Shown piece by piece: positions 15,548 to 41,689 of a stretch of 64,000 nucleotides of DNA. Numbering within the stretch: the stretch's first letter is position 1; each line of letters begins with the position of its first letter. Under the pieces are notes generated by a model. The model worked only from the letters and a program-made list of their open reading frames with translations, searched no databases and had not been told where the DNA came from. The position numbers were made by a program, and so were the translations under genes. Source of the stretch: a virus; the IMG/VR virus record IMGVR_UViG_3300035660_000005, positions 1 to 64,000 of that record; one strand, written 5' to 3'.

Positions 15548-15658
15548 AAGTAAAGAGGGTCAAATATATCCTGATTCCACGGCCTACCGGACTATACAGG
15601 TCTTCCAATCGACAGCGATTCTCGTGCATCCTACTGCGTCTGAGAACGTTTAGCTGTG
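15548..15658. promoter_or_regulatory. Composite control element, copy 1
   Basis: A 52-bp block (15548-15599, starting AAGTAAAGAGGGTC and ending CCGGACTATACAG) matches 41550-41601 at 49 of 52 positions. It is followed, after 49 bases, by TTTAGCTGTG at 15649-15658, which recurs at nearly the same distance in copy 2. It lies between the divergent operons, 40-150 bases before the rightward gene at 15698. Candidate roles: promoter for the phage sigma-like factor, or operator. The rest of the 274-base gene-free interval 15424-15697 shows nothing else I can support. Confidence 0.55.
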
Positions 15659-15697
15659 AACCCGATTCACCTGCGGTAAGCGGTATAGAGAGGTGAG

Positions 15698-16069
15698 ATG
15701 GGAGTTCCACTTAAACGTCGCACCGCACGAGAGATGACTGAGCCGGAGCGGGCTTGGGTAGGAGCGCTGCTTGAGGGCGAAGGCAGTGTTTACCCTAACG
15801 GCGGCGGCACCACGATATGCGTAGCTAACACCGACCTCGAACTGATCTCGGCTTTGTTACGGCTCACTGGGGTTGGATGCGTGTCTCTGCAGACACGTGC
15901 AGGGCAACGTAGAGGAAGTGGCACCGCCCGTCATGATCTTTGGTTGTGGACTCTCCACCGACACAACGACGTCTACGCGGTTGCCTGCCAGTGCACCGAG
16001 TATTCGCAGAAGGCTCAACGCGCCATGAAGCTTATCGAACAGCGGGAGGCCAAGCGTGCAGAGCACTAA
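15698..16069 (+). CDS. LAGLIDADG-type homing endonuclease, single motif
   Basis: A 123-residue protein with one LAGLIDADG-like helix, AWVGALLEGEGSVYP, whose acidic end carries the catalytic-type Glu. A beta-rich core (GGTTICVANTDLELI ... LTGVGCVSLQTRAG) and a basic C-terminus follow. Single-motif forms act as dimers. It opens the rightward operon, with a GAGAGGTGAG ribosome site, and overlaps the RNase HII start by 14 bp, so it is probably a free-standing selfish gene inserted at an operon head. Residual activity cannot be judged. Confidence 0.75.
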   Translation: MGVPLKRRTAREMTEPERAWVGALLEGEGSVYPNGGGTTICVANTDLELISALLRLTGVGCVSLQTRAGQRRGSGTARHDLWLWTLHRHNDVYAVACQCTEYSQKAQRAMKLIEQREAKRAEH

Positions 16070-16724
16070 GCCAATCACAATCGGCGTCGACGAGTGTAAT
16101 TTTAGTCCGAGTATCTGTGGCGACTGTGTAGTCGCGGCTTGCACGTTGACTGCCGAGCCACCTGAGGGGCTGCTCGGAGACTCCAAGAAGCTGTCGCGGG
16201 CACGACGGCTCGCAGCCTTCGAGTGGCTGCAAGAGAACTCGCTGTACGTCGTGGAGATCGCCGCAGTGAACCACATCTCGCTCTGCGGTGTGTACAAGGC
16301 GCGCAACGCAGCCGCGAGGCGGGCCGCCGAGGGCTTGATAGCCCTCCTGGAAACCCAGGACGTGTGCGTCGTCATCGACGGCAACCCCTTCCCGTTGGGG
16401 TCACCAGGACGGCTGTGGCAGCACTCAACCCAGGTGAAGTTCATCGTACGTGCCGACGAGACCGTGCCCGAGGTCTCGGCTGCGTCCATTATTGCCAAGA
16501 CCTACACTGACGCCCTCTTCGACGGCTGGGGTCGGAACTGGGCTGGCTACGGTATGGAGCGCGACCACGGCTCCCCGAGTACGAAGCACAAAGACGCACT
16601 GCGCAAGCAAGGCCCATCGCCGCTACACCGCACCCACCACTACGGAGCCGACTGGTGGAAGCAGCTACTGGGTACGGACTGTCACTGCGGTTCGATTGGG
16701 CGTCGATACCCCATCGGGTCGTAA
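16056..16724 (+). CDS. rnhB: Ribonuclease HII
   Basis: A 222-residue RNase HII. The first active-site motif is GVDECN (usually GVDEAG), followed by GDSKKLSRARR, a VVIDGNP strand carrying the second Asp, ADETVPEVSAASIIAKTYTD, and a DHGSPSTKH loop with the last acidic and His residues. The enzyme cuts RNA in RNA-DNA hybrids, removing primers. It starts with GTG at 16056 after a GGGAGG site, inside the end of the LAGLIDADG gene. The altered residues after DE in motif I are unusual but leave the catalytic pair intact. Confidence 0.88.
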   Translation: MQSTKPITIGVDECNFSPSICGDCVVAACTLTAEPPEGLLGDSKKLSRARRLAAFEWLQENSLYVVEIAAVNHISLCGVYKARNAAARRAAEGLIALLETQDVCVVIDGNPFPLGSPGRLWQHSTQVKFIVRADETVPEVSAASIIAKTYTDALFDGWGRNWAGYGMERDHGSPSTKHKDALRKQGPSPLHRTHHYGADWWKQLLGTDCHCGSIGRRYPIGS

Positions 16725-16743
16725 AGAGCAGGGGGAGACACTC

Positions 16744-17112
16744 ATGCTGAGCATCACGACCAAGGTCACAGTTCCAGGCTACCACCATTGGGCCGGCGCT
16801 CCGGACAATGCACAGAACTTCCTGAAGAACATCCACCGACATCTCTTCACGTTCGAGGCCGAGGTGCAGGTAACCGGAAGCCGCCAGGTCGAGTTCTTCG
16901 AGTTGCAGGAGCGGATGCGCTACATACTCGAGAGGGTCGGCTACTTCAACGGCCTACTTGTGAGCAGACATGGCACATCGATGTCGTGCGAGCAGATGGC
17001 TGAGACGATGGCACGGGCGCTGTACAACCAGCACGGTCACATGGTGCTGAAGGTGTCCGTGTCAGAGGATGGCGAGTCTAGCGGGACTTGGACGCGCGAC
17101 CGATACGAGTAA
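16744..17112 (+). CDS. Divergent PTPS/QueD-fold protein
   Basis: A 122-residue protein with the zinc-histidine layout of 6-pyruvoyl-tetrahydropterin synthase folds: a first His pair H14/H15 (GYHHWAGAP), then H31-x-H33 (IHRHLFTFEAEVQV), a SCEQMAETMA segment matching the family's conserved Cys/Glu region, and a terminal VSEDGESSG strand with Glu. It lacks the full LHGHxY motif of the authentic QueD at 63379. It may bind a pterin- or purine-like substrate in a different reaction. ATG at 16744 has a GGGGGAG site. It sits next to a purine phosphoribosyltransferase. Confidence 0.55.
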   Translation: MLSITTKVTVPGYHHWAGAPDNAQNFLKNIHRHLFTFEAEVQVTGSRQVEFFELQERMRYILERVGYFNGLLVSRHGTSMSCEQMAETMARALYNQHGHMVLKVSVSEDGESSGTWTRDRYE

Positions 17113-17115
17113 GTC

Positions 17116-17631
17116 ATGCGGCAGTTACTGACGCGCGAAGCGGTTGAGGACATCGTGCTCGCACTCGCCGAGCGCATCGAGGACGATGAGCGCCTCGGCG
17201 ACGACCCCCTGATGCTCGGTGTGTTGAATGGTGCGTTCATGTTCGTCGCTGACTTAGTGCGCGCACTCGAATGTGGTGTCGCGTGGAGTCATGGCGACGT
17301 CGCATTCATTGGTGTGTCCAGCTACGGCGACAAACAGACCAGCTCCGGTGAACCTGTGTGCACCTACCGACCCGATGTGAACCTGCGCGGACGAACCATA
17401 CTACTGGTGGAAGACATCGTGGATAGCGGCTGCACCATCGAGTGGCTCGACAGCTACTTACACGATGCTGGTGCCGAGCGTGTGCTTGTGTGCTCGCTGC
17501 TGGTGCGTGAAGGCAAAGAGCACCTGGTGGACTTCATCGGGCGCGTGATCAAGCACGGCGACTTCGCATTCGGCTACGGCCTAGACTTGAAGCACCGCAT
17601 GCGGGGCCTGCCGGACATATGGGTCGAGTAG
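17116..17631 (+). CDS. hpt-like: Hypoxanthine/guanine phosphoribosyltransferase-like protein
   Basis: A 171-residue type I phosphoribosyltransferase. The PRPP-binding motif LLVEDIVDSGCTIEWL lies at residues 96-111, with the Glu99-Asp100 pair; GVLNGAFMFVADLVRAL supplies the first loop; and FAFGYGLD near the end is typical of hypoxanthine-guanine enzymes. It would convert a purine base and PRPP to the nucleotide. Phages rarely carry this enzyme. With the deoxyribosyltransferase-like gene downstream and the QueD-like gene upstream it forms a purine-handling group. It begins three bases after the previous stop. Confidence 0.85.
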   Translation: MRQLLTREAVEDIVLALAERIEDDERLGDDPLMLGVLNGAFMFVADLVRALECGVAWSHGDVAFIGVSSYGDKQTSSGEPVCTYRPDVNLRGRTILLVEDIVDSGCTIEWLDSYLHDAGAERVLVCSLLVREGKEHLVDFIGRVIKHGDFAFGYGLDLKHRMRGLPDIWVE

Positions 17632-17644
17632 TAGGGAGGCCAAC

Positions 17645-18187
17645 ATGAGTGGCAGCAAGACACGAGCCAGCTTGGCAGTCGAGCTCCGCTTGACGGAGCC
17701 GATCACCGTCTACCTCGCCGGCCCGATCTCGCACTTGTCGTACGACGAGGCCATGAGCCGTCGCGCCGAGCTTATTGAGCCGCTGCGGGCCGCACAAGTC
17801 ACCTACGGAATCAGGTTCGCCATTCGTTCCCCCATGAGGGGCAAGATGTTCCTAGCGCACGTGCGCGGTCCGTTGAAGCCCGGTGGCTATCGGCAAGCCA
17901 TGAGCACCGACTCGGCCATCGTCGGCAGGGACGAGACAGATGTCCGCGTCTGCGAGGTCATGATCGCAGACTTCCTCGGTGCGCCCGAGAAGAGCATCGG
18001 CACTTGTGTCGAATTCGGCCTCTGCTTGGCGTGGCATAAGTTCGTGATCATGATCATCGAGGAGGGTAAGCTCAACCCTCACGACCACGGCTTCCTCCGG
18101 CGCATCGCCCACTGTATAGTCCGCACGCGGGAGGAGGCGGTCAAGGCGCTGCTCCAGTATGCAGGAGTCGAGCCGGACGAGAGCTAG
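17645..18187 (+). CDS. Nucleoside 2-deoxyribosyltransferase-like protein
   Basis: A 180-residue protein with an N-terminal TVYLAGPIS strand-loop, a Rossmann-like core, and GTCVEFGLCLAWHKFVIMI carrying the family-type Glu. These are hallmarks of nucleoside 2-deoxyribosyltransferases and related N-glycosidases, which exchange or remove bases on deoxynucleosides. There is a GGGAGG ribosome site, and 13 bases separate it from the phosphoribosyltransferase. It could release or swap a modified base on nucleotides; substrate unknown. Confidence 0.7.
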   Translation: MSGSKTRASLAVELRLTEPITVYLAGPISHLSYDEAMSRRAELIEPLRAAQVTYGIRFAIRSPMRGKMFLAHVRGPLKPGGYRQAMSTDSAIVGRDETDVRVCEVMIADFLGAPEKSIGTCVEFGLCLAWHKFVIMIIEEGKLNPHDHGFLRRIAHCIVRTREEAVKALLQYAGVEPDES

Positions 18188-18246
18188 AGCCGTAGTGTTG
18201 CCCTCAGCGGTGATGTATAGTGAGCGCACAAGGCAGGAAATGTGTG

Positions 18247-18498
18247 ATGGTGGCTCGCAGAACTTCGGAAGTCGATGCGGATCTCGCCGAGTTCCGCGGC
18301 CAGGTGCTTGAGTTCATGCGTCACCAGGACGAAGTCAACGCGTCGTTCAGTCACTTCCTCGTCAACTGTTTTCCCCACTTCGTCGAAGCCGTCGGTCGGC
18401 TCGAAGGCAGTGTGCGGTGGATCATGTGGGGTCTCGGCGCGCTGGTGACAATTGGGCTAGCGGCTGGGGTCGCTAACGTAGTGTCGGTGTTCAAGTAG
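18247..18498 (+). CDS. Small membrane protein, holin candidate
   Basis: The product starts with a hydrophilic helix (VARRTSEVDADLAEFRGQVL) and ends in one transmembrane segment (WIMWGLGALVTIGLAAGVANVV) with a short tail. Size and position just ahead of the lysin gene fit a holin or lysis accessory protein. The ATG at 18247 has AGGAAA nine bases upstream; a GTG at 18220 is a weaker alternative. A TATAGT hexamer at 18216-18221 could be part of a weak promoter, but no matching -35 is seen. Confidence 0.55.
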   Translation: MVARRTSEVDADLAEFRGQVLEFMRHQDEVNASFSHFLVNCFPHFVEAVGRLEGSVRWIMWGLGALVTIGLAAGVANVVSVFK

Positions 18499-18511
18499 GA
18501 GGTTCGAGGAC

Positions 18512-18736
18512 ATGCTCTCTAAGCTCATTGCCTTCGTGAAGTCGTATCCGGTGGTCGGCGCTACGTGGCGCCTACTTCGTGCGGCTGGAGCCTACGGACT
18601 CGGCGCGGCAATCGCCTACCTCGCTGGGCACTTCGCCGGTCTCCCAGTGCCCGTCGTTTGGATTCCTACCATCGGTTTCTGCATCCAGGCCCTCGACAAG
18701 TTCCTGCGTGAGAAGGGCGTCATCAACTACCCCTAA
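18512..18736 (+). CDS. Small membrane protein, holin candidate
   Basis: A 74-residue protein with two hydrophobic stretches (AYGLGAAIAYLAGHFAGL and VPVVWIPTIGFCIQAL) separated by a short turn, and a basic N- and C-terminus. This is a class II holin-like topology. It follows the other small membrane gene by 13 bases with an AGGAGG site and precedes the lysin gene. Which of the two forms the lysis hole cannot be told from sequence. Confidence 0.6.
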   Translation: MLSKLIAFVKSYPVVGATWRLLRAAGAYGLGAAIAYLAGHFAGLPVPVVWIPTIGFCIQALDKFLREKGVINYP

Positions 18737-18811
18737 TCGAACACGCACGGGTGCGGGATGTGTTTCACGTTCGACCGTGAATCCGGTAACGCATGAGGAC
18801 AGGAGTGTAAG

Positions 18812-19882
18812 ATGGACAAGAACACAGTAGCGGTGTGGGGCTGGGTCCTTAGCGCAATGGACGGGGGCAACCTCGACCGCATCGTGCAGCGCCTTCGCGA
18901 TAGTGGCGTGACCATGCTCATCGGTCCAAAGGCCTGGGACAGCGGGCAGTGGATGACGAACGTCATCTGGAAGGAAGTCCGCGACGCCCTCAAGCAACGG
19001 ATGCCAGAGCTGAAGGTGTACGCCTGGGGCTACTGCTATCCAAGCACTGCGGTAGCGGACGGTGCGCGCGCTGCCGAATGCGTGACCTACGGACAAGCCG
19101 ACGGCGTCGTGCTCGACGTCGAGATCGAGTTCGAGAACCATCCGCGCGAAGCCCAGCTACTGTGCGAACGCTTCCGTTCGCAGTGTCCCGACACGGACTT
19201 GCTCTACTCCACGTTTGCACTCCCTGCCTACCACAGTGCCTTCCCCTACAGCACCTTCCAGCGCTACTGCAACGGACTCGTGCCGCAGCTGTACTTCACC
19301 TACTGGATCCCGCCTACAGGAAACATGTTCCAGAACGTGACCGCTGCCGCCGGTGCGATGTGTACCCAGCACGGCGCTATCGGAATCGGCTCGGACAGCT
19401 TGATCGTGACCGCTGACCTCTACGACGAGGGCGGACACCGCGCCCCGACAGCGGCCGAGATGGAGGAGTTCGCGCGTGCCTGCAAGCAGCTCAACTGCGG
19501 AGGTATCGCTGCCTGGTCCTACCAGCACATGAGCGATGCACTCTGGAGTGCCTTCCAGCGGGCCGAGGCGATATTCGCCTCAGCGGCACCATCGGACCCA
19601 TGCGCTGAGGTGAAGGCTCAATTGGCGGCAGCCCTTCGACAAGTCGACGCGCAGTCCGCACTCCTCAGCCACTCGGTGACACAGATCGCCGAGCTGACCA
19701 CCGAGCGCGATAACCTCCGCCGTCAGGTGGAGACGATTGCGGCACAGCGCGACGCGTATAGTGCTCAGGCGGAAAAGCGGCTGAAGAGAATTCGCGAGCT
19801 GGAACTGATCATCAAGGGTGCTGGCCAACTGGCGAAGGCAGTCTCCGACTCGTTGAACGGCGTCAAGCCCTACACGGACTAG
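18812..19882 (+). CDS. TIM-barrel glycoside hydrolase, putative endolysin
   Basis: A 356-residue protein. Residues 1-250 look like a glycoside hydrolase barrel: VWGWVLSAM, LIGPKAWD, VYAWGYCYP, DGVVLDVEIEFE (acidic, likely catalytic), LYSTFALP, VPQLYFTYW and GGIAAWSYQ strands in order. Residues from about 265 form a heptad coiled coil (LAAALRQVDAQSALLSHSV and on). It sits at the end of the lysis group after two small membrane proteins, so a peptidoglycan-degrading role is likely. It has no recognisable cell-wall-binding repeat or signal peptide; the coiled coil may oligomerise the enzyme. Confidence 0.65.
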   Translation: MDKNTVAVWGWVLSAMDGGNLDRIVQRLRDSGVTMLIGPKAWDSGQWMTNVIWKEVRDALKQRMPELKVYAWGYCYPSTAVADGARAAECVTYGQADGVVLDVEIEFENHPREAQLLCERFRSQCPDTDLLYSTFALPAYHSAFPYSTFQRYCNGLVPQLYFTYWIPPTGNMFQNVTAAAGAMCTQHGAIGIGSDSLIVTADLYDEGGHRAPTAAEMEEFARACKQLNCGGIAAWSYQHMSDALWSAFQRAEAIFASAAPSDPCAEVKAQLAAALRQVDAQSALLSHSVTQIAELTTERDNLRRQVETIAAQRDAYSAQAEKRLKRIRELELIIKGAGQLAKAVSDSLNGVKPYTD

Positions 19883-22800
19883 ACGTTCGGGTGCACGCCC
19901 CGCAAGAAGTAAAACTGCCAAGACTTGCCCACAGTAGTCTGCGTCTCTAGTCCACATACGGGACCCGTTGACGTCGTCTGTCCAGGCAGGTTAGCCACGA
20001 ACGTATGGCTCGCCAGCACCTCATAGGCTGCGTCTAGCAACTCCACAAGGATGTTCGGTACCGTGTCATCGACTGTGATGCGCACGTAGACCGCGCCTGT
20101 GCTGGCGGCGATCCCACTGTCCACGATGTTCTGCGTCACGTTGTCCTTGCTCACGAACCGCCAGTTGGTGTCAGCGCGCGGAGTGGAGAACTGCACACCC
20201 ACGTAGTGACCAGCCGGGTCGTCGGCGCCGGCCATGGTTACCAGAGTCTGGTTGGACAGTCCGAAGAAGCAGCGCACGTTGGCTATGCTCACCAACTTCA
20301 GCTTGAGCAAGATGCGAGGACTCTGCCGGCGGGTGTGCACCTTCTGGGCTGTGAGAAACGCGAAGCCGCCCTCGTTGCCGGACACCGCGCCTGAGAGGAA
20401 GCTCGCGTACATACCGTCCGCGTCTTCCAAGCAGTAGCTGTCCGTGCCAGATATAGTCAGGGTTCCACCGGCGTAGAGACCTGTTCGGGAAGCTACGGTT
20501 GACGAGTAGCCAGGCTGCATGTCGCCCCACTGGCCCTTCCCGATCATGACGTCCGCGAGCGTGCCACCGTCACCGCCCGGAGGAGGAAGTGTCAGCTTGA
20601 GTACCTGGCCCTCTAGCTCAAGTGCAGGGTCACTTCCAGGATCGAGCGTCACCGCCGCGTGGTGTGGTGGGCCGTCGCCGATGGCTGTATGCTCGGCGTC
20701 GCGCATGATTGCGGCAGGGATGTCCGCGTCGTCCAGTACTCGGAATGCCGGCGGGGCAGCGGGGGCGGCGGCTGGCCCAGCGAGCACCATGTTCGGCTCT
20801 TCGCTGTTCGACTGTACGAGCTTCTTGACAGTCACCGTACCAGCGATGGTGTCCACCACGAGAACGCTGGTGAGGTCGGCCGCTTCGACGATGAAGGCCC
20901 CCTCGTCGTCTGTCGTGATACGGACGCCGAACATGAACTGCTGCCGACCGGGGATGTTGACTCCGGTCGTCGGGTTGATCGGGTTGAGTTGCCCACTCGC
21001 TGTGCTGCCTGTTGCGCTGCCTGCACTCATACCGTCAATCAGGCGCTTGATCCGAATGGACCACTCGTACTGCACCGAGTTGAACCCGACAGTCCAGTGG
21101 GCAGCACTGTCGTCGCCGACCTCCAACGTAATGGCGCGGACACGGAAGCGCTCCATGTTGATCTTGCCGGGGACGTCGACGTAGACCCAGTCGCCGATGT
21201 CGAAGTTCTCAAACACTTCCGACGCGCCGATGATGGACTCCACTACCGACGTGAAGCCCTCGTCTGCCTCACTCAGCGAAGCGAGGGCCAACGCCGCCGC
21301 ACGACCGGCGGTAGAGATGTCCTGCTTGGTGGCGTCCATGAACGTCTCGCGCCGCGGGAAACTGCTGGCCTTCGCGAACTCACTCAGGCCCGAGTCCGAG
21401 GCTACGAGCGCGATCGTCTTGACGGAACCGGATGTGCTCTTGCGATGCTTACTATAGAGGTTGTAGCCCTGGCGGAACGTCGTTGGGGCCTGACCGACAG
21501 TTCGGTCGATGCCGCGTGACACGTAGACCTTGAGCTTGATCCCACTGGTCACGTAGGCGTTGTAGCCCATCGTCACGAACTGGTTTAGTAGTGACGTCAG
21601 CGTGATGCCCGGTTCGACATCCATTGTGAACGTCTCTGGCCACAGCTCGCCGTTACTGTCCACCTCGTCGGTAAAGCCGACCGTCATGCCGAGCAGGGCT
21701 CCGCGGGCGGCCGCCTTCGCGACCTGATCTGCGAGGATGTAGCCAGGAGTTCTGTCGACGTAACTCGTCAGCAGTGGTTCGCGATCGGGCCAGTTGGGTG
21801 GGTAGACGACGGCGTTGTCAAGTAGTGCGAACGGACCACGTCCGGCAACGTTGTAGCCCTGAACAGACTCTTCGCCCTCCTCCAGAACCACCTCTTCAAC
21901 CTGCTCGATCAGGAACGCACAGCGCTCGATTCCGTCGTAGTAGATCCGCACGAGGTTACCATGCGCCAGGTTGGTTGTCGTTGCCTTGAGGTCAGAAGCG
22001 TGGATCGAGAACTTGCCAGCACCTGTGTTGTCGAGCTCCAACGAGGCGCCAACACCGAACGCGTTCTCCAGGATCGCGAGCAGCGTCCCGAAGTTGTCAC
22101 GATCGTAGACGCGAACCTCGACACCGATGCCTCGAAGCGGCTCTTCGGACAGTACGGTGAACGTGCGCGAGTTGGATTCGTCCTCGTGCACCCTTGTGTG
22201 CAACGTGTGGACTTGCCCCGACTCGGCGTCCACTGGGACCGTGAAGATGCCACGACGATTGCGGACACCAGTCGGACCGCCGCAGATCAACTCGTTGAGA
22301 AGTACCTCCAGCTCGAAGTCCCAATCGATCCATCCGTAGTCGTCGCCGTCGAGCGTGAGGTCAGAGTCGTTCCCACTGAAGTCGGCCACGGTCGCGCCGG
22401 CGCCGTCGTCGAAGTGCCACAGCCCTACCGTGTTAGGGTTGGGCGAGTACTCCCATTCCGGTGCGTAGTTGACTACACCGAGGTTGGCCTGAACGATCTG
22501 CATCTCACGGACGTCGGCCTCGACGTAGCTCGCCGTGCCGCCCACGCGCATGTAATCGATAGCGTGGTTGGTGACCGCGGCTGAAGCGACGAGGACACCG
22601 TCCACCAGCAGGTGAAGCGAACCGCCAGCGTAGACCAAACGAACAGCGTGCCAGTCGCCGTCGTCGTAGTGACCGAGCGTAGTGAGGATCGTCGCACCGT
22701 GCTTCGCACGCACGTGTCCCTGGTTGAGCTCGAGGATGTAGCGTGTGAGGACGGGCGCACCGTTCGTGCACAGCTCTACCAACGAACCGGTGCTCTCCCC

Positions 22801-23244: not shown

Positions 23245-23265
23245 AGCACACTCCGGATCTAAGAC

Positions 23266-24141: not shown

Positions 24142-24153
24142 GTGTCACCTTCC

Positions 24154-25506: not shown

Positions 25507-25508
25507 GG

Positions 25509-31139: not shown

Positions 31140-31141
31140 CG

Positions 31142-31952: not shown

Positions 31953-31961
31953 CGCTACGCT

Positions 31962-32324: not shown

Positions 32325-32336
32325 GGTAGCCTCCTC

Positions 32337-32945: not shown

Positions 32946-32948
32946 CGC

Positions 32949-33344: not shown

Positions 33345-33347
33345 GTT

Positions 33348-33689: not shown

Positions 33690-33717
33690 GTGGCTATGCC
33701 TCCTCGGGTTGCGAGCG

Positions 33718-34065: not shown

Positions 34066-34075
34066 GTCTGTCTCC

Positions 34076-34345: not shown

Positions 34346-34380
34346 AGTTGGCTATGCCCTCCTTATAGTCCTCTCCACGC

Positions 34381-35007: not shown

Positions 35008-35081
35008 TTCGTAGTCCTCCTGTCGAGCGCTCCTCGCGGGAGCGATCGTCTCCTCCTGACGATTCGTCAGAGAGGCCTAGC

Positions 35082-35114
35082 GGGAGCGGGCAGTCCGTTA
35101 AGTTGCCCGCTCCC
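35082..35114 (-). terminator. Strong hairpin after the major capsid gene
   Basis: A perfect 11-bp stem (35082-35092 with 35104-35114, GGGAGCGGGCA) with an 11-base loop lies 27 bases after the capsid stop. Two smaller hairpins follow within 70 bases (35059-35073 CTGAC/GTCAG, and a GCTCC/GGAGC pair near 35028-35042). There is no T-run, so it may attenuate transcription or protect the capsid mRNA 3' end rather than terminate fully. Confidence 0.55.
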
Positions 35115-35140
35115 CATATTCAGTTTGACGTCGTGGTCGA

Positions 35141-36115
35141 TTACGGCTCGACGCTGACGTTGTAAGCGATGGCCGTCGCCTTGGCGACTGCGATCCGCGC
35201 GTCGATACGCGTGGTCACGATGAAGCTCGTGACGCCCTCGCGGGGGTCACGGAACTGCTCCATCTTGATGGCCCGACGGAAGCCCGCGTAGAGGTTCATG
35301 CGGTGGGTAAGCAGAACGAACGACTTGTCCGGACTGCCTGGGATCACCTTCATGAGCGGGACACTCACGATGGAGATCCCCTGGTAGGTGAGCGGGCGGG
35401 TGCCGGATAGGATCTCGTCACCCAGAGCAGTGCCGCGCTCAGCGAGCTGGTCGCGGTACTTCTCCTCAAGGATGGTCGGGACGTAGAAGCGCATGTTCGC
35501 GAGGTCGCGCTTGTACATCGGCGGCAGGCTCTTCAGAAGCGTGCCGAAGACGGTCTGGTAGTCCTGGCCGAGAACGGTGACGTCAGCGGCGTTGTTGCCC
35601 GTCTGCTCGCCACAGCGTGCCAGCCAGCCATCCAGCAGGTTGAGGTAGCCGGTGGTGTCGTCGGTGTTGTCGACGAAGGAGTTGTCCATGTCACCGCAGA
35701 TCATGAGCTCCTCGACGTCGCGACCGACACCCTCCGCCACCATCGAGATGATGGTGTCGGCGAAGCCAGCGCGCTCCACCTGGTCCTCAAGGACCTCGTC
35801 GGTGACTGGGACCTCACCGCGAAGCAGCACGGTGGACATCTCGATGACGCCGGTTGTTGGCTTCACACGATTGGCCGTGTCCAGCCGCTCACCCTCGGTG
35901 CCTGCACGCATGATGCGTGCGGAGAAGTCGATTGTGCTCTCCTGCCACTTACTGGCGTTGTTCATGACGGTGCGAACGTCGGGGAGCATCTTCTGCGGCT
36001 TGATCGCCATCCGCAGGAACGTCTGCACCTGCTCAATGGTGAGCGGAGCCTCGCCTGCGCCGCCGAAGTCGGCAAGCGCCAGCGTGGCCTTGCGAAGCAG
36101 CTCTTCGTTTGTCAT
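35141..36115 (-). CDS. Major capsid protein
   Basis: A 324-residue HK97-fold-type capsid protein. It has an N-terminal helical arm (MTNEELLRKATLALADFGGA), an E-loop/spine region (SARIMRAGTEGERLDTANRV), then RGEVPVTDEVLEDQVERAGF, and a C-terminal domain with VLLTHRMNLYAGFRRAIKME and TTRIDARIAVAKATAIAYNV. The length and motif order match siphovirus capsid proteins. Scaffold-like genes lie upstream and hairpins downstream, as for a strongly expressed gene. Confidence 0.8.
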   Translation of the reverse strand: MTNEELLRKATLALADFGGAGEAPLTIEQVQTFLRMAIKPQKMLPDVRTVMNNASKWQESTIDFSARIMRAGTEGERLDTANRVKPTTGVIEMSTVLLRGEVPVTDEVLEDQVERAGFADTIISMVAEGVGRDVEELMICGDMDNSFVDNTDDTTGYLNLLDGWLARCGEQTGNNAADVTVLGQDYQTVFGTLLKSLPPMYKRDLANMRFYVPTILEEKYRDQLAERGTALGDEILSGTRPLTYQGISIVSVPLMKVIPGSPDKSFVLLTHRMNLYAGFRRAIKMEQFRDPREGVTSFIVTTRIDARIAVAKATAIAYNVSVEP

Positions 36116-36158
36116 GGTCGTTCCTCTCTCCTTAGGGTTGGTCTGTCTTCCCCTGGCT

Positions 36159-36596
36159 CTACTTCAGCTCGAGCGAGTGGCCGGAGCCACGCCGCACGAA
36201 CTTCGTGAAGGCCTTCGCTAGCGACGTCTCGGGGGTGTCGTCGTCCTTGGGTGCCGTGTCGTCGCCCTCGATGCTCTTGCGCAGAGCCGTAGCCTTCTCC
36301 AGCTTGCCCACACGGTCCATCACCGCGTCGAACGCCTTGGTGAGGGTCTCCATGAAAGCGCTCAGAGCAGCGACGGTCTTTGCGACATCGCCCTCTCCGC
36401 CCAGCGCCTTCTCGACGGCATCGATGCGCGCCGTAAGCGCGGTCAGGTCTACCGTCCCCGGCTTTGGGTCAGGAGTGGCGTTGGGATCCGGCGTCGCGTT
36501 GGGGTCAGGGGTTGCGTTCGGGTCCGCCGGCTTCAGGGCGGCCTGAAGTGTCTCGTTGAGTCCCGCCCAGAACCCGTCCTTCTTCTCTTCGGCCAT
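36159..36596 (-). CDS. Putative scaffolding protein with PDPNAT repeats
   Basis: A 145-residue protein with an N-terminal helix, then a tandem repeat of PDPNAT (three units), then a helix-rich stretch (RIDAVEKALGGEGDVAKTVA and LTKAFDAVMDRVGKLEKATA) and a basic C-terminal end (FTKFVRRGSGHSLELK). Helical, charged proteins just before the capsid gene are usually scaffolds. The repeat is encoded by near-identical 18-base units. Confidence 0.55.
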   Translation of the reverse strand: MAEEKKDGFWAGLNETLQAALKPADPNATPDPNATPDPNATPDPKPGTVDLTALTARIDAVEKALGGEGDVAKTVAALSAFMETLTKAFDAVMDRVGKLEKATALRKSIEGDDTAPKDDDTPETSLAKAFTKFVRRGSGHSLELK

Positions 36597-36607
36597 TGTC
36601 GTCTCCC

Positions 36608-37150
36608 TTACTCTTCGCCAGCCGCCTCCACCTTGGCCCGTAGGTCCTCCACGGCCTTGGCGAGCTGGCTGGCCTTGTCCTCGCTGGTGGCCTCGGAGCG
36701 GTAAATGTTCGCCACCTGCTTACAGAAGTTGGGCCACTCCGCGAGGATCGCCTTCTGCATTCCTGGTGTTGGGTACGCGTTGTCTGGCTTCTTGGCCTTC
36801 ATCTTCTCCCACATGGTCTTCAGGAAGTCGATGAACGCCTTCGGTGCGGGGTATCCGTAGCCGTCCGGCTTCTTGTTGCCGTACTGCTCCTCAAGGAACT
36901 TGAGGATCGTGTCGCAGGCGTCCTTCACTTCCTTCGGGACGTCTCCGTCCTTGAGCTCCGTCAGCTGGGCAGTGAGGTCGTTGGCGGCCTTGATGAGTTC
37001 GGCCTCCTGCTTGATGAGTTCGTCCAGCTCCTCGACGCCGGTGATGTCCGCATTCTTCATAACGGCCCATCCCTCCTCTTCGTTCGCGGAATGATCGACG
37101 CCGGACGTCTCGTCCCAGCGCAGGTTGACAATCTTCTTAGCAGTAGGCAT
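36608..37150 (-). CDS. Putative capsid assembly protein
   Basis: A 180-residue protein beginning MPTAKKIVNLRWDETSGVDH and then SANEEEGWAVMK, an opening seen in several phage prohead-associated proteins. A long charged helical region follows. It is the first gene of the capsid-tail operon, followed directly by the scaffold-like gene. Possibly a second scaffold or a protease-linked protein; no catalytic residues are evident. Confidence 0.5.
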   Translation of the reverse strand: MPTAKKIVNLRWDETSGVDHSANEEEGWAVMKNADITGVEELDELIKQEAELIKAANDLTAQLTELKDGDVPKEVKDACDTILKFLEEQYGNKKPDGYGYPAPKAFIDFLKTMWEKMKAKKPDNAYPTPGMQKAILAEWPNFCKQVANIYRSEATSEDKASQLAKAVEDLRAKVEAAGEE

Positions 37151-37334
37151 GGTAGTCCGACCTCATTCTAAGCGACGACAACACCAGTGGGCAACACAAC
37201 GGTACCCCACGGCTTTAGGGAGACTCGACGGGGCACAGGTAGGTCTTAGAGGACTTCGTGAGGTGCGGGACACGAGGAACGAACCACACGCTAACAGCGC
37301 GCTTGAGGCGACACGCACACTGGCGGGACACCAA

Positions 37335-37364
37335 GAGCGGGCCGTCTTAGGACCGGCCCGCTCC
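37335..37364 (-). terminator. Perfect GC-rich hairpin upstream of capsid operon
   Basis: A perfect 10-bp stem GAGCGGGCCG with its complement (37335-37344 and 37354-37363) and a 9-base loop. It shares the GAGCGGGC core with the hairpin after the capsid gene. There is no T-run. It lies between the small genes at 37403-37653 and the capsid operon start at 37150, so it may end transcripts from the promoter at 37674. The rest of 37151-37402 holds no convincing ORF. Confidence 0.5.
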
Positions 37365-37402
37365 TAGCGGAGGTGTGTTGGAGAGACTGTCAACTGTCTA
37401 CG

Positions 37403-37486
37403 TTACGGTCGTCGCATCTTCTCGAGGTCGTACTTGATGATCAGGCTGAGCCTGAACAGGGTCGCTTCGGCCGACGTCATCTTCAT
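37403..37486 (-). CDS. 27-residue peptide
   Basis: ATG at 37486 (ribosome site GGAGGGTG) overlaps the stop of the previous small ORF by one base; stop TAA at 37403. The peptide is MKMTSAEATLFRLSLIIKYD plus a short basic end. Its C-terminal hydrophobic segment resembles that of the 32-residue peptide at 15325. Coding evidence is limited to the ribosome site and overlap. Confidence 0.4.
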   Translation of the reverse strand: MKMTSAEATLFRLSLIIKYDLEKMRRP

Positions 37487-37653
37487 TACTTCACCCTCCT
37501 CGGGAACTGGATGACCTTGCCGCGGTCGCGCTCCTGGATCCGTTCGAGTATCGGGCGCTCGAAGCAGCGTGCCATCTCGCGGCGACTACCGCTGGACTCG
37601 CGCAGGAACCGATGTAGTTCCAGGTCGATGATTCCGTCTGTTTGCGTCTTCAT
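37486..37653 (-). CDS. 55-residue basic peptide, first gene after promoter copy B
   Basis: ATG at 37653 with a GGAGGTAAGAGGAG site just downstream of the promoter at 37674-37702. The product starts MKTQTDGIIDLELHRFLRES and is rich in Arg and Glu with a basic end. The leader and first codons are identical to those of the peptide gene at 15423, so a duplicated expression cassette was joined to different small genes. Confidence 0.5.
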   Translation of the reverse strand: MKTQTDGIIDLELHRFLRESSGSRREMARCFERPILERIQERDRGKVIQFPRRVK

Positions 37654-37673
37654 CTCCTCTTACCTCCACCTAT

Positions 37674-37702
37674 ATCATCCATGATAGGAAGACAGAGGTC
37701 AA
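37674..37702 (-). promoter_or_regulatory. Sigma70-type promoter, repeat copy B
   Basis: -35 TTGACC (37702-37697), 17-base spacer, -10 GATGAT (37679-37674) on the minus strand. Bases 37645-37708 are identical to 15415-15478. The AT-rich DNA upstream (37703-37742) resembles the region upstream of the rightward promoter at 41752. Confidence 0.7.
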
Positions 37703-37735
37703 CGGGTTAGAGAGCAATATTTGGAATTTGATTTA

Positions 37736-38047
37736 CTAATCAGTACTGCATTGTACTGGATGAAGTGCTGCCCATGCTGGCGAGCACTGGATCAAGACGG
37801 TAGCTGTCACAGTGGTCGGGGAGCGAGGAGTTGAACCTCGGCTTCCTGGTCCCAGGCCAGGGGTGCTGCCGTAACACCTCTCCCCGACTAGAGCCGGCTC
37901 CGTTGGCGTCGCGGGCTCGACGGCGGCGGCCGCTGGCGCGGAGCTCGTGCCGGCAGTGGGGCTCGGCTCAGCACTTGAACTGTACAACGTATGCGCACTC
38001 ACCAGCAACACAACGACGGTCAGCAGCTTCAGCAGGAAGGCGAGCAT
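37736..38047 (-). CDS. Putative membrane-anchored peptide; 3' half overlaps the tRNA
   Basis: ATG at 38047 overlaps the upstream stop (TGATG). The first 20 residues form a signal anchor (MLAFLLKLLTVVVLLVSAHT), followed by a Ser/Pro/Ala-rich stretch. The later part of the frame is the tRNA-Pro sequence read as codons, so the reading frame past about 37886 may be fortuitous. The N-terminal part may be real and could end early by transcript processing at the tRNA. The length is therefore uncertain. Confidence 0.35.
   Translation of the reverse strand: MLAFLLKLLTVVVLLVSAHTLYSSSAEPSPTAGTSSAPAAAAVEPATPTEPALVGERCYGSTPGLGPGSRGSTPRSPTTVTATVLIQCSPAWAALHPVQCSTD
37813..37886 (-). tRNA. tRNA-Pro (anticodon TGG), encoded CCA
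   Basis: Reverse-strand cloverleaf of 74 nt. Acceptor stem CGGGGAG/CTCCCCG; D-stem GTGT/GCAC; anticodon stem CCTGG/CCAGG with loop CCTGGGA (anticodon TGG); T-arm CGAGG-TTCAACT-CCTCG; discriminator A; genomic CCA end. Position 33, normally T, is C, and position 8 is A rather than T. The acceptor end resembles cellular tRNA-Pro. All stems pair fully, so the gene is likely functional, though with odd conserved positions. Confidence 0.75.
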
Positions 38048-38265
38048 CACCACGCCCTAATCCCGCTCGGTGCGCCGCCACGTCCCTCCTCGTGTGGAGT
38101 GAACAGGTCAGCTGCGTTGACGATACGGCCACCGTGCTCGTTATACCGGATCTCATGAGCTGGGACTGAGTTGCCCGAGCGCCGCGCTGGTTGCACTCGC
38201 TTGGCTAGCACATCACGCATGGTCGTGCGAGGCGGAATGCTACCCCGAGGCGGAATGCCTCTCAC
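38047..38265 (-). CDS. Small basic protein; start codons overlap a direct repeat
   Basis: GTG at 38265 overlaps the stop of the upstream gene (GTGA), giving 72 residues; ATG at 38220 gives 57. The region between the two starts contains a 13-bp direct repeat (38228-38240 and 38246-38258), so the true start is open. The product ends ADLFTPHEEGRGGAPSGIRA. No domain recognised. Confidence 0.45.
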   Translation of the reverse strand: MRGIPPRGSIPPRTTMRDVLAKRVQPARRSGNSVPAHEIRYNEHGGRIVNAADLFTPHEEGRGGAPSGIRAW

Positions 38266-38921
38266 CAGAAGCTCGGTTCACCACTGTCGCTGGGTGTCGG
38301 TGGAATCTCTGGTCCCTCTTCCTCCTCGCGTTCCTGTGGGGCATGCTCGTCAGGCGCCAGCTCCTCTGCACGGAACCAGATCTCTTCCATCGAGCCGAAC
38401 CTGACGAAGTAGACCCAGCTCTCCCGAGGGTCGCGCTCGATGCGCACGACGCGACCGTGGTACTCGAACCACTGGGACTCCTTCTCGCACACGACGATGT
38501 AGTCGCCAACGTTGAACACTGGCTTCTCATCTTTCGCGGTCAGTCGTTCCATCGTGGTTGCTCCGCCGTCGTTAATTAGCCGGGTCGGTGGTTTCGCGAC
38601 ACGAGGATCGTCCTCTGGCTGAGCCAACTCCAACTGACGAACTGCTTGCTCACACACCGCTTCCAACGCCGGCGGCAGTGGAGGCGGCTCGAAGAGGTGG
38701 CGAAGTTCGGGTGGTGCGCTCTCGCGACACCAGGCGTCTAGCGCCTTTCCGCGTCGACGTGCGAACTCGAGGTACTCGTCCACCAGACCCCTCGTCCAAC
38801 TCTCACCAGGTTCCTTCGGGTCTCGCGAGCCGATGCGCTCGATCCGGATCAACAGTGAGTGGTCTGTGTGGGAAAGTGCGGGCAGCTCAAGTCTTGGCAG
38901 TTCCGGCGTCCGTGTCACCAT
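38262..38921 (-). CDS. Protein with C-terminal SH3-like domain
   Basis: A 219-residue protein. The first part is helical and charged. From about 135 there is a small beta-barrel type pattern (VFNVGDYIVVCEKESQWFEY, HGRVVRIERDPRESWVYFVR, EEIWFRAEEL), typical of SH3-like or KOW-like folds that bind nucleic acid or protein. The end is acidic and Pro-rich. ATG at 38921 has a GGGAGG site. Role unknown. Confidence 0.5.
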   Translation of the reverse strand: MVTRTPELPRLELPALSHTDHSLLIRIERIGSRDPKEPGESWTRGLVDEYLEFARRRGKALDAWCRESAPPELRHLFEPPPLPPALEAVCEQAVRQLELAQPEDDPRVAKPPTRLINDGGATTMERLTAKDEKPVFNVGDYIVVCEKESQWFEYHGRVVRIERDPRESWVYFVRFGSMEEIWFRAEELAPDEHAPQEREEEEGPEIPPTPSDSGEPSFW

Positions 38922-39051
38922 TGTGAGCCTCCCTCAACCTCTTCGCCTTCTCGATTATAAGGCGCCACAGCAGGCGAACGCTAGCCCCAGAGACCCTGTG
39001 CGAGCGCGCCTTCGTGCGCCGCTGTTCCCTGCGTTCGTTACGTGTTGTCAC
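38887..39051 (-). CDS. Small basic ORF (54 codons), tentative
   Basis: GTG at 39051, one base after the stop of the upstream gene; TGA at 38887. It overlaps the start of the SH3-like gene by 35 bp. The peptide is very basic (TTRNERREQRRTKARSHR) with one hydrophobic stretch (VRLLWRLIIEKAKRL). It fills an otherwise empty 131-base gap. No ribosome site stands out, so this is tentative. Confidence 0.35.
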   Translation of the reverse strand: MTTRNERREQRRTKARSHRVSGASVRLLWRLIIEKAKRLREAHNGDTDAGTAKT

Positions 39052-39052
39052 G

Positions 39053-39220
39053 CTACTCCTGGGCCTGGGTCAAGAGCGAGCGACAGAAGTCCTTGAACAG
39101 GTACTTCCACTGCGGCTTGAAGTCCTTCTGGGTTAGCGGGTTGCCCTCTGCCCACTTGAGGAAGCCTTCCTGCGTGAGCAGCCACGCCATCGTCTTCGGG
39201 TCTGTGAAGTTCTCGCTCAT
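39053..39220 (-). CDS. Small protein, unknown function
   Basis: A 55-residue product from the ATG at 39220, which has a GGAGG ribosome site (the longer frame upstream lacks one). It starts MSENFTDPKTMAWLLTQEGF and contains several aromatic residues (KPQWKYLFKDFCRSLL). Compact helical protein; no family recognised. The 66 bases upstream to 39338 hold no further ORF. Confidence 0.5.
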   Translation of the reverse strand: MSENFTDPKTMAWLLTQEGFLKWAEGNPLTQKDFKPQWKYLFKDFCRSLLTQAQE

Positions 39221-39337
39221 CAGTGAGCCTCCTCTATCTGGGATGCGGTACTGCTCGACGAGTTGCTGCATAGACCACCTAGCGACGTCGCGCCGAACCG
39301 ATGTGACTGGTACACTATTTCCGGCACCGTATTCCCC

Positions 39338-39769
39338 TTACGGTAGTGTGCCCTCTGCGGTGGCGGTGACCTCCAGGTTGGCGCCGGCACAACTCGGTGC
39401 GGGGTCGCCCATCGTCACGGTGAACTTGAGTGTACGGCTATGGCCTGCCTTCAGCTCGATCGGGAGTCCGTAGGGCCCGACGTAGTCAAGCGCGCACACG
39501 TCGCCGTCGTTGAACGTCAACGTCAACGCTGCAAGCGTCACGTCCTTGGTGTTGGGGTTGGTGACTGCCACGTCCATCTTGACATGGTCGCCGGGTAGGA
39601 TTCCATCCAGCACCGAGGCGTCGGGCGTCACAACCAACACCTGCACTGTACCCACCTGGAACGTGTCCGTGCCTGACCCGGTCACCCGAAGGACTGCGAA
39701 CGTCGCCACGCCCACCAAGGCTAGCACGATGGCCGCCCCGGCTGCGATCAGCAGTTTCTTTTCTTTCAT
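39338..39769 (-). CDS. Membrane-anchored Ig-like protein
   Basis: A 143-residue protein with an N-terminal signal anchor (KKLLIAAGAAIVLALVGVAT) and an exported beta-sandwich-like domain (VKMDVAVTNPNTKDVTLAAL, IELKAGHSRTLKFTV). There is no lipobox and no cleavage site as clear as in a secreted protein. It may modify the host surface, for example in exclusion of other phages, but that is speculative. It overlaps the next upstream gene by 4 bp. Confidence 0.5.
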   Translation of the reverse strand: MKEKKLLIAAGAAIVLALVGVATFAVLRVTGSGTDTFQVGTVQVLVVTPDASVLDGILPGDHVKMDVAVTNPNTKDVTLAALTLTFNDGDVCALDYVGPYGLPIELKAGHSRTLKFTVTMGDPAPSCAGANLEVTATAEGTLP

Positions 39770-40137
39770 GCGCCGGCTTCCTTCTTGATGTACCGACCGT
39801 GCGCGTCGCGCGCAGGGGCACTCGTCACCGGCGCCGGCGTCGCGTCTTCGAGGCAGGGAAGCGGTGTCGGTGTCACTTCGGCCCTGAGCTCATCGATAAG
39901 TAGGTCGGTGGCGAGCTCGACGGACTCGCCGCGCGTCATGGTGGCACCGTCTGTGAGGCGCTCCTGGATGGCTGCCTGGAACGCTGTGTGCGACTTGCCG
40001 TGCAGCACGCCGCCACAGCGGCAGATGCACACCGGCAGGTGAGCGTCCTCGCAAGCTGCCGAACCCTTGGCCGAGAGCGGCCGCTTGTAGACCTTGCTCG
40101 GGTCTCGCTTGATTGCGTAGACTGCTTTCCTCGTCAT
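39766..40137 (-). CDS. Small Cys-rich protein
   Basis: The 123-residue product starts MTRKAVYAIKRDPSKVYKRP at the ATG at 40137 (AAGGAGG site, ATGA overlap). It has a Cys cluster CxCxC then GGxxHG (CICRCGGVLHGKSH), a motif common in small phage zinc-type proteins. The C-terminus ends RDAHGRYIKKEAGA. Function unknown. Confidence 0.55.
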   Translation of the reverse strand: MTRKAVYAIKRDPSKVYKRPLSAKGSAACEDAHLPVCICRCGGVLHGKSHTAFQAAIQERLTDGATMTRGESVELATDLLIDELRAEVTPTPLPCLEDATPAPVTSAPARDAHGRYIKKEAGA

Positions 40138-40313
40138 CGTGCAACCTCCTTCAGGCTGATGACTGCTATTGGAAGACAGCCGGGGCATACGATGCCCTTA
40201 CCCGCGGGTGGTGGGTAGCCGTCGGTGCCGTGGTGAGTGTGCTCGCCGCACAGACAGCAGTCGCCTTCCACGCCGCCGGTAATAGTGTCTTCCTTGCTTG
40301 CCGTTGGTTCCAT
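40134..40313 (-). CDS. Zinc-ribbon-type microprotein
   Basis: A 59-residue ORF from the ATG at 40313 to a TGA that overlaps the next ATG. It contains CCLCGEHTHHG and CPGC, a plausible treble-clef or zinc-ribbon pair, followed by a short helix (LPIAVISLKEVAR). The ribosome site is AGAAGAG. The coding end supplies the AAGGAGG site of the next gene, supporting real translation. Confidence 0.5.
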   Translation of the reverse strand: MEPTASKEDTITGGVEGDCCLCGEHTHHGTDGYPPPAGKGIVCPGCLPIAVISLKEVAR

Positions 40314-40380
40314 CTCTTCTCTCTACTCCCTTGTCCTCGTTGGGTGTCGACTACCGCATCTACCGGTTGACGCCTGCGCC

Positions 40381-40746
40381 TCAGCCGCTGTTGTAGATGT
40401 CGTCGACCAGTGCGCGCGCTCCGGTCTCGAGCTCGCCCTTGTCGCGCAAGGCAATCATGCGGTTCACGAACTCAGTCTTGCGCACCTCGACGCGGTCGTG
40501 GCGACGCTTCGCCTCGTCGTACTGTGCCTGGACGCGGGCCGTGCGACGCTCGGTCTTGCGTACCGGGTCGTGCGTGCCGCAGTAGGGTTGCTCGCCGAGT
40601 GGTGCGTTCTGGGGATCGGCCAGGTCGAGTCGGGGGTCGTGGCGCATGACCGTGGCGTTCTTCTCGCACCGCGAGGAGTCCCAACCTCGCCAAACCTTCT
40701 CACTGCACTTCACCGGCCGTCCGTTGTTGTCCACTATCTTGGCCAT
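40381..40746 (-). CDS. Small charged protein with His/Cys residues
   Basis: A 121-residue protein starting MAKIVDNNGRPVKCSEKVWR, with C14, C27 and a CGTHD segment, then a long basic-acidic helix (ARVQAQYDEAKRRHDRVEVR). ATG at 40746 has a GGAGGTGAAG site. The pattern suggests a small N-terminal zinc domain plus coiled coil. No family recognised. Confidence 0.5.
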   Translation of the reverse strand: MAKIVDNNGRPVKCSEKVWRGWDSSRCEKNATVMRHDPRLDLADPQNAPLGEQPYCGTHDPVRKTERRTARVQAQYDEAKRRHDRVEVRKTEFVNRMIALRDKGELETGARALVDDIYNSG

Positions 40747-40747
40747 C

Positions 40748-41191
40748 CTACTTCACCTCCTCCAGTTTGAGGTCGCTCACTCGCACCTTGCCGAGCGTGT
40801 CGTCTACGAGCCAGTGAACGACGATCTTGTTGCCGCCGCAGGCAGCCGAGTACCCGTAGTTGGCTTGCTCTCGGCTGAAGCCAACGACGATGCCGACCGT
40901 GTCGATGTGCGCGGTCGCGTAGCGGTGGTGGTGTCGAGAAACCTCGCTGGGCCTCAGCACCACTCGGTCGCCCTTCTGGAACCCTGCCTGTCGAGGCCAC
41001 CTCGTGCGCCGTGTGACCACGCCGACACCGTCGCCATCTGCGGCCGTGCCAACTGGTTCTGGCCCGTATTTGTTGGCCACGCGCGCGTCCATTTCGAGTT
41101 CGCGGCCGCGCTCGAGTCCGCACTCGTAGCACTGGCTTGGGTCGTGCTGCGAGCCCTCTCCGCGTGCGATCGGATCGTTGAGCTCAAACAT
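40748..41191 (-). CDS. Protein with SH3/KOW-like C-terminal domain
   Basis: A 147-residue protein. The start has CYECGLERGRELE; the C-terminal part has FQKGDRVVLRPSEVSRHHHR, HIDTVGIVVGFSREQANYGY and GNKIVVHWLVDDTLGKVRVS, a small beta-barrel pattern like that at 38262. ATG at 41191 has a GGAGG site two bases after the previous gene stop. Role unknown. Confidence 0.5.
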   Translation of the reverse strand: MFELNDPIARGEGSQHDPSQCYECGLERGRELEMDARVANKYGPEPVGTAADGDGVGVVTRRTRWPRQAGFQKGDRVVLRPSEVSRHHHRYATAHIDTVGIVVGFSREQANYGYSAACGGNKIVVHWLVDDTLGKVRVSDLKLEEVK

Positions 41192-41192
41192 C

Positions 41193-41444
41193 TTAATTGA
41201 CCTCCTCCGTCATGAGCCGCCACCGTCGGGTCACCTCGCCAAGCTCTTCGTTAGTGACCTCGCCGCGCTCCCAACGTTGGCGAGTCTCTTGGAGCTGCCT
41301 GGTCACCTCTTCGAGCGTGGTCGTCTGGCGGAGGGTCTCGCGCTCCTGCCGTCTCTGCTCGAGCTCGCGCTCTTTCACACGGCTCTCCCAGAAGCGACCC
41401 ATCTCCTCCACCTCTGTCCTCCGCCCTTTGAAGTTCCCTGTCAT
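41193..41444 (-). CDS. Small coiled-coil protein, first gene after promoter copy C
   Basis: An 83-residue protein, nearly all helix (RVKERELEQRRQERETLRQT and TRQLQETRQRWERGEV). ATG at 41444 is preceded by GGAGGTAAGAGGAG, the same leader as the other repeat-promoter genes. It is the first gene of the leftward accessory operon. No family recognised. Confidence 0.55.
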   Translation of the reverse strand: MTGNFKGRRTEVEEMGRFWESRVKERELEQRRQERETLRQTTTLEEVTRQLQETRQRWERGEVTNEELGEVTRRWRLMTEEVN

Positions 41445-41465
41445 CTCCTCTTACCTCCTACATCT

Positions 41466-41494
41466 ATCGTCCAGGATAGGAAGACAGAGGTCAA
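41466..41494 (-). promoter_or_regulatory. Sigma70-type promoter, repeat copy C
   Basis: -35 TTGACC (41494-41489), 17-base spacer, -10 GACGAT (41471-41466), minus strand. The spacer TCTGTCTTCCTATCCTG differs from copies A and B at one base. It drives the leftward operon starting at 41444. It is part of the gene-free interval 41445-41800. Confidence 0.65.
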
Positions 41495-41549
41495 CGGGTT
41501 TGGCGACCAATTTCCAAGAAATTTTCACAGTCGCTCCGTGGAATAAGCC

Positions 41550-41689
41550 AAGTAAAGAGGGTCTAATATATCCTGATTCCACAGCCTGCCGGACTATACA
41601 GTCGCACGAATGCCGACCGTAGAATCGTGTCCTAGTGCGGCAGGTTCCATTTAGCTGTGATAGGAAGTTCAGGGAGGTCCACAGCTAAA
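41550..41689. promoter_or_regulatory. Composite control element, copy 2, with inverted repeat
   Basis: The 52-bp block at 41550-41601 matches 15548-15599 at 49 of 52 positions. TTTAGCTGTG follows at 41650-41659, at the same distance as in copy 1, and its exact complement CACAGCTAAA lies at 41680-41689, making a 10-bp inverted repeat with a 20-base spacer. It sits within the 356-base gene-free interval 41445-41800, whose other contents are promoters at 41466 and 41752. Candidate binding site for a phage regulator or the sigma-like factor. Confidence 0.6.

Follow-up and report, generated by a model that had tools for sequence, protein, structure and literature searches.

The two rightward operons of a tailed bacteriophage whose genes are otherwise nearly all transcribed leftward are each preceded by a copy of one divergent control region. 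We found this region in a stretch of 64,000 nucleotides (hereafter the window), bases 1-64000 of the 78,297-base virus record IMGVR_UViG_3300035660_000005; the remainder of the record was read as L004. The two loci are copies of a single region of about 240 bp and contain a 52-bp block (hereafter the block) followed by an 11-nt sequence, TTTAGCTGTGA. From the sequence, we tentatively read the block as a promoter or activation site that depends on a phage factor and would serve both rightward operons, and TAGCTGTG as a regulator site of its own.

The two copies of the block are identical at 49 of 52 positions, as the initial annotation had stated, and its second claim, of a downstream sequence at nearly equal distance, holds as well: TTTAGCTGTGA is 11/11 identical and begins 49 nt after the block at locus 1 and 48 nt after it at locus 2. 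TTTAGCTGTG is present at 15649 and 41650 on the + strand, and inclusion of the next A extends the shared run to the 11 nt of TTTAGCTGTGA. When the two downstream stretches were shuffled 20,000 times, a shared 11-nt run at an offset within 2 nt never arose. The middle parts between block and TTTAGCTGTGA show weak similarity (44 of 2000 shuffles scored at least equally), and the 30-bp flanks of the block are identical between loci at 12/30 and 7/30 positions. This patchy conservation indicates that the region is not a fresh copy of the whole. In blastn, the promoter, spacer and block form a single match (181 columns, 72%, E 5e-23), so the duplicated unit takes in the leftward promoter. Over the approximately 240 bp that align, three islands only are kept, namely the early promoter, the block and TTTAGCTGTGA. 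The fixed spacing proposed earlier stands inside the unit (49/48 nt) and fails outside it, where the block lies 75 bp from the leftward -35 hexamer at locus 1 versus 55 bp at locus 2, and 98 versus 193 bp from the rightward start codon.

Both blocks are located exactly at the two divergent junctions ahead of rightward operons 1 and 2 and lie, as previously described, between a leftward promoter and a rightward operon (Table 1). The proposal that they belong to a control element is well supported insofar as they are regulatory DNA: they are intergenic, strongly conserved, present at both divergent junctions and probably not coding. A coding reading was considered and rejected; the open + frame of both copies has two amino-acid changes from three base differences, and the long open reading frames (ORFs) that cross the block differ in frame between the loci. 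The hexamer ATATAT is found in the two blocks only throughout the 78 kb. Four A/T runs of at least 8 occur in the record, two of them inside the blocks; Markov simulations expect 0.4 to 4.9, and so the number of such runs is not in itself unusual. GTAAAGAG, which lies in the block, was seemingly common to other gaps and was not used, because those gaps are possibly coding and missed by the gene caller. The block is ordinary in kind and unusual for its length and for having just two copies.

The initial annotation had looked to a genome-wide search for further copies, and only the two were found: there is no other exact copy (0 mismatches) in the record, and the best non-block position matches at 29/52. 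A two-copy profile run over 120 sequences (918,416 bases, with all 8 whole-read relative records included) gave only the two known copies above threshold. With two copies of the block and six of TAGCTGTG, the record does not show multi-copy operator repeats of the stoperator or start-associated-sequence type. The mycobacteriophage repeats (Cluster O palindrome, Cluster K start-associated sequences, Cluster A stoperators) are likewise repeated phage motifs, many of them intergenic, but they are many short copies, whereas here two long asymmetric copies stand at divergent junctions; the 17-bp palindrome of Cluster O is present in more than 30 copies, according to PMC4351075.

The need for a rightward start is clearest at locus 1. 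No sigma-70-like promoter was found on the + strand of 15424-15697, where a position-weight scan with approximate weights reached 7.6, the same value as the 90th percentile of 150 random windows. Operon 1 must thus be started by something else, and the block is the sole conserved candidate. At locus 2, a strong rightward sigma-70-like promoter is positioned downstream of the block. Both copies of the block have the same orientation, ahead of rightward operons (2/2), and the same phage encodes a sigma-70-family-like protein. Within the block itself, -35 and -10 hexamers of a host sigma-70 promoter separated by 16-18 nt were not found.

The sigma-like protein of 193 aa is a product of the locus 1 leftward operon. 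Its match to the NCBIfam family sigma70-ECF (TIGR02937) has an E value of 1.4e-5 and 24.8 bits, below the curated cut-off of 42.9, and its best matches among sequences of solved structures are sigma factors at E 0.19 or worse. A single-sequence AlphaFold model has a mean predicted local distance difference test (pLDDT) score of 73, and sigma factors make up most of the best Foldseek matches to this model, with an E value of 0.009 for the top one and no value below 0.001. These matches suggest that the gene probably encodes a sigma-family protein. As regards the gene, the idea that the element may be a promoter of a phage sigma-like factor is plausible. A record-wide scan speaks against a general promoter of this kind, as it found the block upstream of no leftward structural operon.

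In the mechanism that we propose, early leftward transcription from host-type promoters would make phage regulators, the sigma-like protein among them. One phage regulator, possibly an alternative-sigma holoenzyme or an activator together with RNA polymerase, would recognise the block. Its recognition would start rightward transcription of operon 1 and would add a second, later start to operon 2, while TTTAGCTGTGA would be a separate regulator site, with the motif TAGCTGTG, held at a fixed distance. Several observations weigh against a phage-factor-dependent promoter. The leftward late operons are served by no copy of the block, and a conserved stretch of 52 bp exceeds what a promoter needs. 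The best -10-like hexamers within the block, TATATT and TATAGT, are on the - strand. For a start just after the block, TTTAGCTGTGA would lie about 45 nt downstream, which is odd for an activator site. The conservation is that of two copies within one record, with none in relatives. Computation is, moreover, an unreliable guide to promoters of this type: the authors of PMC8948821 failed to predict the sigma promoters of phage 7-11 in this way and obtained a bipartite consensus only by primer extension. In a more specific form, an ECF/FliA-like sigma encoded by the phage would use a promoter of about 52 bp that also requires TTTAGCTGTGA, about 45 nt downstream, as a second site, which may pair with the block in the nascent RNA. 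This would be a previously undescribed two-part initiation element of an uncultured lineage with relatives in a Chloroflexota metagenome-assembled genome (MAG); we consider it a long shot.

Known phage-sigma promoters offer a precedent. According to PMC4331800, such promoters are well conserved and of low copy number, and two 43-bp intergenic repeats of Xp10 contain confirmed phage promoters. The element resembles the promoters of phiEco32 gp36, 7-11 gp47 and Xp10, which PMC4331800 and PMC8948821 describe as intergenic repeats of low copy number and high conservation, located in upstream or divergent regions. As in phiEco32 and 7-11, a sigma-like protein is encoded alongside host-type early promoters (Xp10 has an RNA polymerase instead). 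Unlike in those phages, there are two copies only, both rightward, and none stands before structural operons. By eye, the element has no match to the bipartite consensus of 7-11 at 16-nt spacing, and in the comparison with the three phages TAATGTATA is matched at only 6-7 of 9 positions on either strand.

TAGCTGTG behaves as a site of its own. Five of its six copies in the record are intergenic (p 2.5e-6); the intergenic set used for this test includes a missed ORF near 65.6-66.0 kb, and none of the five sites is inside it. One site is at locus 1, an inverted pair is at locus 2, and two are at 71.23 and 71.28 kb (record 71231-71238 and 71275-71282; L004 7231 and 7275), where they flank an 11-bp hairpin (by eye). 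This last pair lies just upstream of a leftward promoter, TTGCCA-16-TAAACT, that stands ahead of a small operon, itself succeeded by the tRNA cluster. Because this third promoter region has two copies of TAGCTGTG but lacks the block, the motif probably constitutes a site distinct from it. Its distribution favours a regulator-binding site rather than a mere pairing partner of the block.

The alternative with the best claim, to which we give a modest chance, denies the block the role of promoter core. A phage regulator would use it as an operator or architectural site, set amid divergent early promoters, and would act like phi29 p4 by repressing early and helping late transcription. At locus 2 the block does lie between a leftward and a rightward promoter, its long contiguous conservation suits a multi-protein complex, and several repeated sites are nearby (TAGCTGTG, CTTCCTATC). 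The p4 sites of phi29 lie between the early A2c/A2b and the late A3 promoters, according to PMC3100819, and the position of the block would fit such a p4/p6 switch region (A2c-A2b-A3), with binding putative. However, the distance to the leftward -35 differs by 20 bp between the loci, the block shows no clear inverted-repeat structure (by eye), and operon 1 would be left without a known promoter at locus 1. The block also differs from the phi29 region in being asymmetric and duplicated at two loci; no p4-type inverted repeat was seen, and no homologue search was made.

It is rather unlikely that the composite instead forms, in tandem with the early promoter, a second leftward promoter that depends on activation, with CACAGCTA as upstream activator site and a -10 (TATATT or TATAGT, - strand) in the block. 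TATATT scores 9.0, more than any other -10-like hexamer in the two gaps on either strand, and TATAGT scores 7.4; ahead of the 71.2-kb leftward promoter, CACAGCTA likewise lies upstream in this orientation, and the fixed spacing of 48-49 nt suits an activator site. But neither hexamer has a good -35 at normal spacing on the - strand of the block, the orientation evidence comes from few sites, and operon 1 would again lack a promoter.

A structured leader RNA, transcribed rightward for anti-termination or translational control, would be closed by a helix between CACRGC in the block and GCUGUG in TTTAGCTGTG. These sequences can pair in both copies, the helix is present in the two-sequence consensus fold, and the G/A difference at block position 34 stays paired (G-U versus A-U) on the + strand only. 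According to PMC9378689, putL and putR of HK022 are two similar RNA elements of about 70 nt in one phage, and the element resembles them as a similar pair near early promoters. Against this, the stability of the fold is within chance (z scores of 0.30 and -1.21), the consensus fold does no better than 9 of 100 column shuffles, copy 1 by eye lacks the second helix of copy 2, and a single change supports the pairing. At the gathering score no Rfam family matches the block, and the one Rfam match within the window is a tRNA. TAGCTGTG, moreover, is found elsewhere without the pairing partner. The mark of the HK022 put type, a stable RNA with two conserved hairpins that lies downstream from an early promoter, was not found here, and the element of locus 2 is upstream, not downstream, of the rightward promoter. 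We regard a leader RNA as improbable.

The promoters around the element form a family, AACCCGTTGACYYCTRTCTTCCTATC plus a -10, at 15472(-), 37702(-), 41494(-) and 41752(+). At the third leftward promoter, at 37.7 kb, no rightward operon starts and no block is present. Several of the leftward structural operons, all of which lack the block upstream, have sigma-70-like candidate promoters in its place. The stretches at 15415 and 37645 are identical at 64/64 positions, and a 92-nt inverted copy (79%) links 37.7 and 41.7 kb, indicating that this genome copies short promoter modules. PeSLs are T4-type mobile promoter cassettes; the 64-bp early promoter module resembles them in being copied around the genome, but no stem-loop cassette structure is shown here and movement of the module is putative. 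Such copying is also what would be expected if the block had no special function and were a not-yet-diverged remnant of a regulatory region duplicated or homogenised by recombination, which is very improbable, because the sharp edges of a 94% block and an 11/11 island amid strongly diverged flanks are hard to obtain without selection or very local conversion. Equally far-fetched is a replication origin or other DNA-processing site that is no transcription signal: the A/T core within a genome of 61% GC and the location of both copies at transcription divergence points would suit it, but no iterons or short repeats are reported at the blocks apart from the two copies themselves, skew follows gene direction, and the most A/T-rich 30-mers are mostly upstream of early promoters, so that A/T richness here looks promoter-related.

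The element was not found outside the record among phage records, plasmids, IMG/VR patterns, genome contigs and the readable capsid relatives. Blastn against phage records gave one record each at E up to 10, chance-like, and plasmids gave no match. In IMG/VR, an 18-mer of the block matched once, in an A/T-rich unrelated contig, a 24-mer of the early promoter matched nowhere, and a gapped two-site pattern matched seven times, in surroundings none of which resemble the element; a 24-position pattern had no match in genome contigs. Queries with single proteins (RNase HII, capsid, terminase) found no relatives. The capsid alignment listed at least 393 relatives among 599 stretches, of which 80 were kept, with identities of 61, 56 and 55% among the matches listed. 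The records of 11 capsid relatives contained one 17-bp chance match only, and in the 4 of 8 whole-read relative records that were scored base by base, the best positions matched the block at 27-29/52, the level of shuffles. As these records are fragments, absence of the block there is weak evidence, except in G001, the best-covered relative, which spans window genes 53 to 76, the counterpart of 37-46 kb. In G001 the matched genes of this region are all leftward, even the methyltransferase-like gene, which the window has rightward, and the region has no divergent junction and no block. G001 agrees with the view that block and divergent junction go together, which as a single relative is thin evidence; a query with the methyltransferase-like gene found G001 again and no other. 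Two contigs of the Ardenticatenales MAG CSMAG_412 (L118 and L119) have capsids of 59-60% identity and genes in a matching order, which is no more than a hint at Chloroflexota as the possible host group. In the genome of this MAG, the element had short chance matches only and the sigma-like protein no match; a polymerase query gave none but distant matches in the MAG and no match in four virus records.

Table 1. Features of the two divergent loci and of related sites (window coordinates)
Feature	Start	End	Strand	Basis
52-bp conserved block, copy 1; A/T core AAATATAT at 15562-15569	15548	15599	+	sequence comparison
52-bp conserved block, copy 2; A/T core TAATATAT at 41564-41571	41550	41601	+	sequence comparison
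Weakly conserved 49-nt middle part, copy 1	15600	15648	+	44/2000 shuffles score as well
Weakly conserved 48-nt middle part, copy 2	41602	41649	+	shuffle test
TTTAGCTGTGA, copy 1	15649	15659	+	sequence comparison, shuffle test
TTTAGCTGTGA, copy 2	41650	41660	+	sequence comparison, shuffle test
Inverted copy of TTTAGCTGTG (+ strand reads CACAGCTAAA)	41680	41689	-	sequence search; absent from the initial annotation
Degenerate early-promoter core GACCTC ... CTTCCTATC (read leftward), between the inverted TTTAGCTGTG copies of 41650-41689	41658	41679	-	by eye
Leftward early promoter, copy 1, AACCCG + TTGACC-17-GATGAT (15472->15444)	15444	15478	-	promoter scan
Leftward early promoter, copy 2, TTGACC-17-GACGAT (41494->41466)	41466	41500	-	promoter scan
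Third leftward early promoter, within the 64/64 copy of the first; tRNA-Pro upstream of it in place of a block	37674	37708	-	promoter scan
Rightward sigma-70-like promoter of the same family, TTGACT-17-TACAAT (hexamers 41752-41780)	41746	41780	+	promoter scan
Sigma-70-family-like protein, 193 aa, leftward operon of locus 1	12740	13321	-	NCBIfam, AlphaFold model, Foldseek
Rightward operon 1, from a LAGLIDADG-like to a TIM-barrel/glycosidase-like ORF (genes from 15698)	15698	19882	+	gene calls and domain searches
Rightward operon 2, about 13 small genes, one spermidine-synthase/methyltransferase-like (43740-44393) (genes from 41795)	41795	45799	+	gene calls, domain searches

The phage encodes a DNA polymerase A, a DnaB-like helicase, UvsX/RecA-like and gp32-like proteins, a portal, a capsid, a terminase and a head protease, together with 22 tRNA genes in the whole record. 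Genes were called with a simple script of our own, whose set probably includes false calls (two short + genes at 8475-9650, near 8.5-9.6 kb) and misses at least one ORF, near 65.6-66.0 kb of the record. Operon 1 contains a LAGLIDADG-like ORF, an RNase HII-like ORF, an ORF of no assigned type, a phosphoribosyltransferase, a nucleoside deoxyribosyltransferase, two small ORFs and, as its last gene beside these two, a TIM-barrel/glycosidase-like ORF. The model of the last (mean pLDDT 63, low confidence) resembles TIM-barrel proteins, many of them glycosidases, and would be compatible with a late lysis role. The LAGLIDADG-like ORF (window 15698-16069, +) comes directly after the element at locus 1 and has a paralogue at record 65626-66039 (-), with 45% identity over 104 columns. 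A TCACCT/AGGTGA hairpin at 15668-15694 (centroid fold), no more stable than shuffles, could mask the ribosome site of this LAGLIDADG-like ORF at locus 1. Elsewhere, a single ORF at window 9800-12739 (-) combines DNA polymerase A and a 3'-5' exonuclease with an N-terminal domain of the uracil-DNA-glycosylase superfamily. In a 1425-aa ORF at window 45796-50073 (-), the domain of an ATP-dependent DNA ligase (229-413) is combined with that of an XkdF-type S78 protease (1289-1418), and related genes are present in several capsid relatives. QueD- and QueE-like ORFs of the deazaguanine pathway were recognised by eye at window 63379-64000 (continuing to record 64026) and record 73023-73775, both on the - strand.

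If the loci are only a duplicated operator region, they represent normal phage regulation. If the block is the target of the sigma-like protein, it would provide a testable promoter pair in a phage for which the search of isolate records gave no close relative. It would also show by what means two rightward operons are driven in a genome otherwise transcribed almost wholly leftward.

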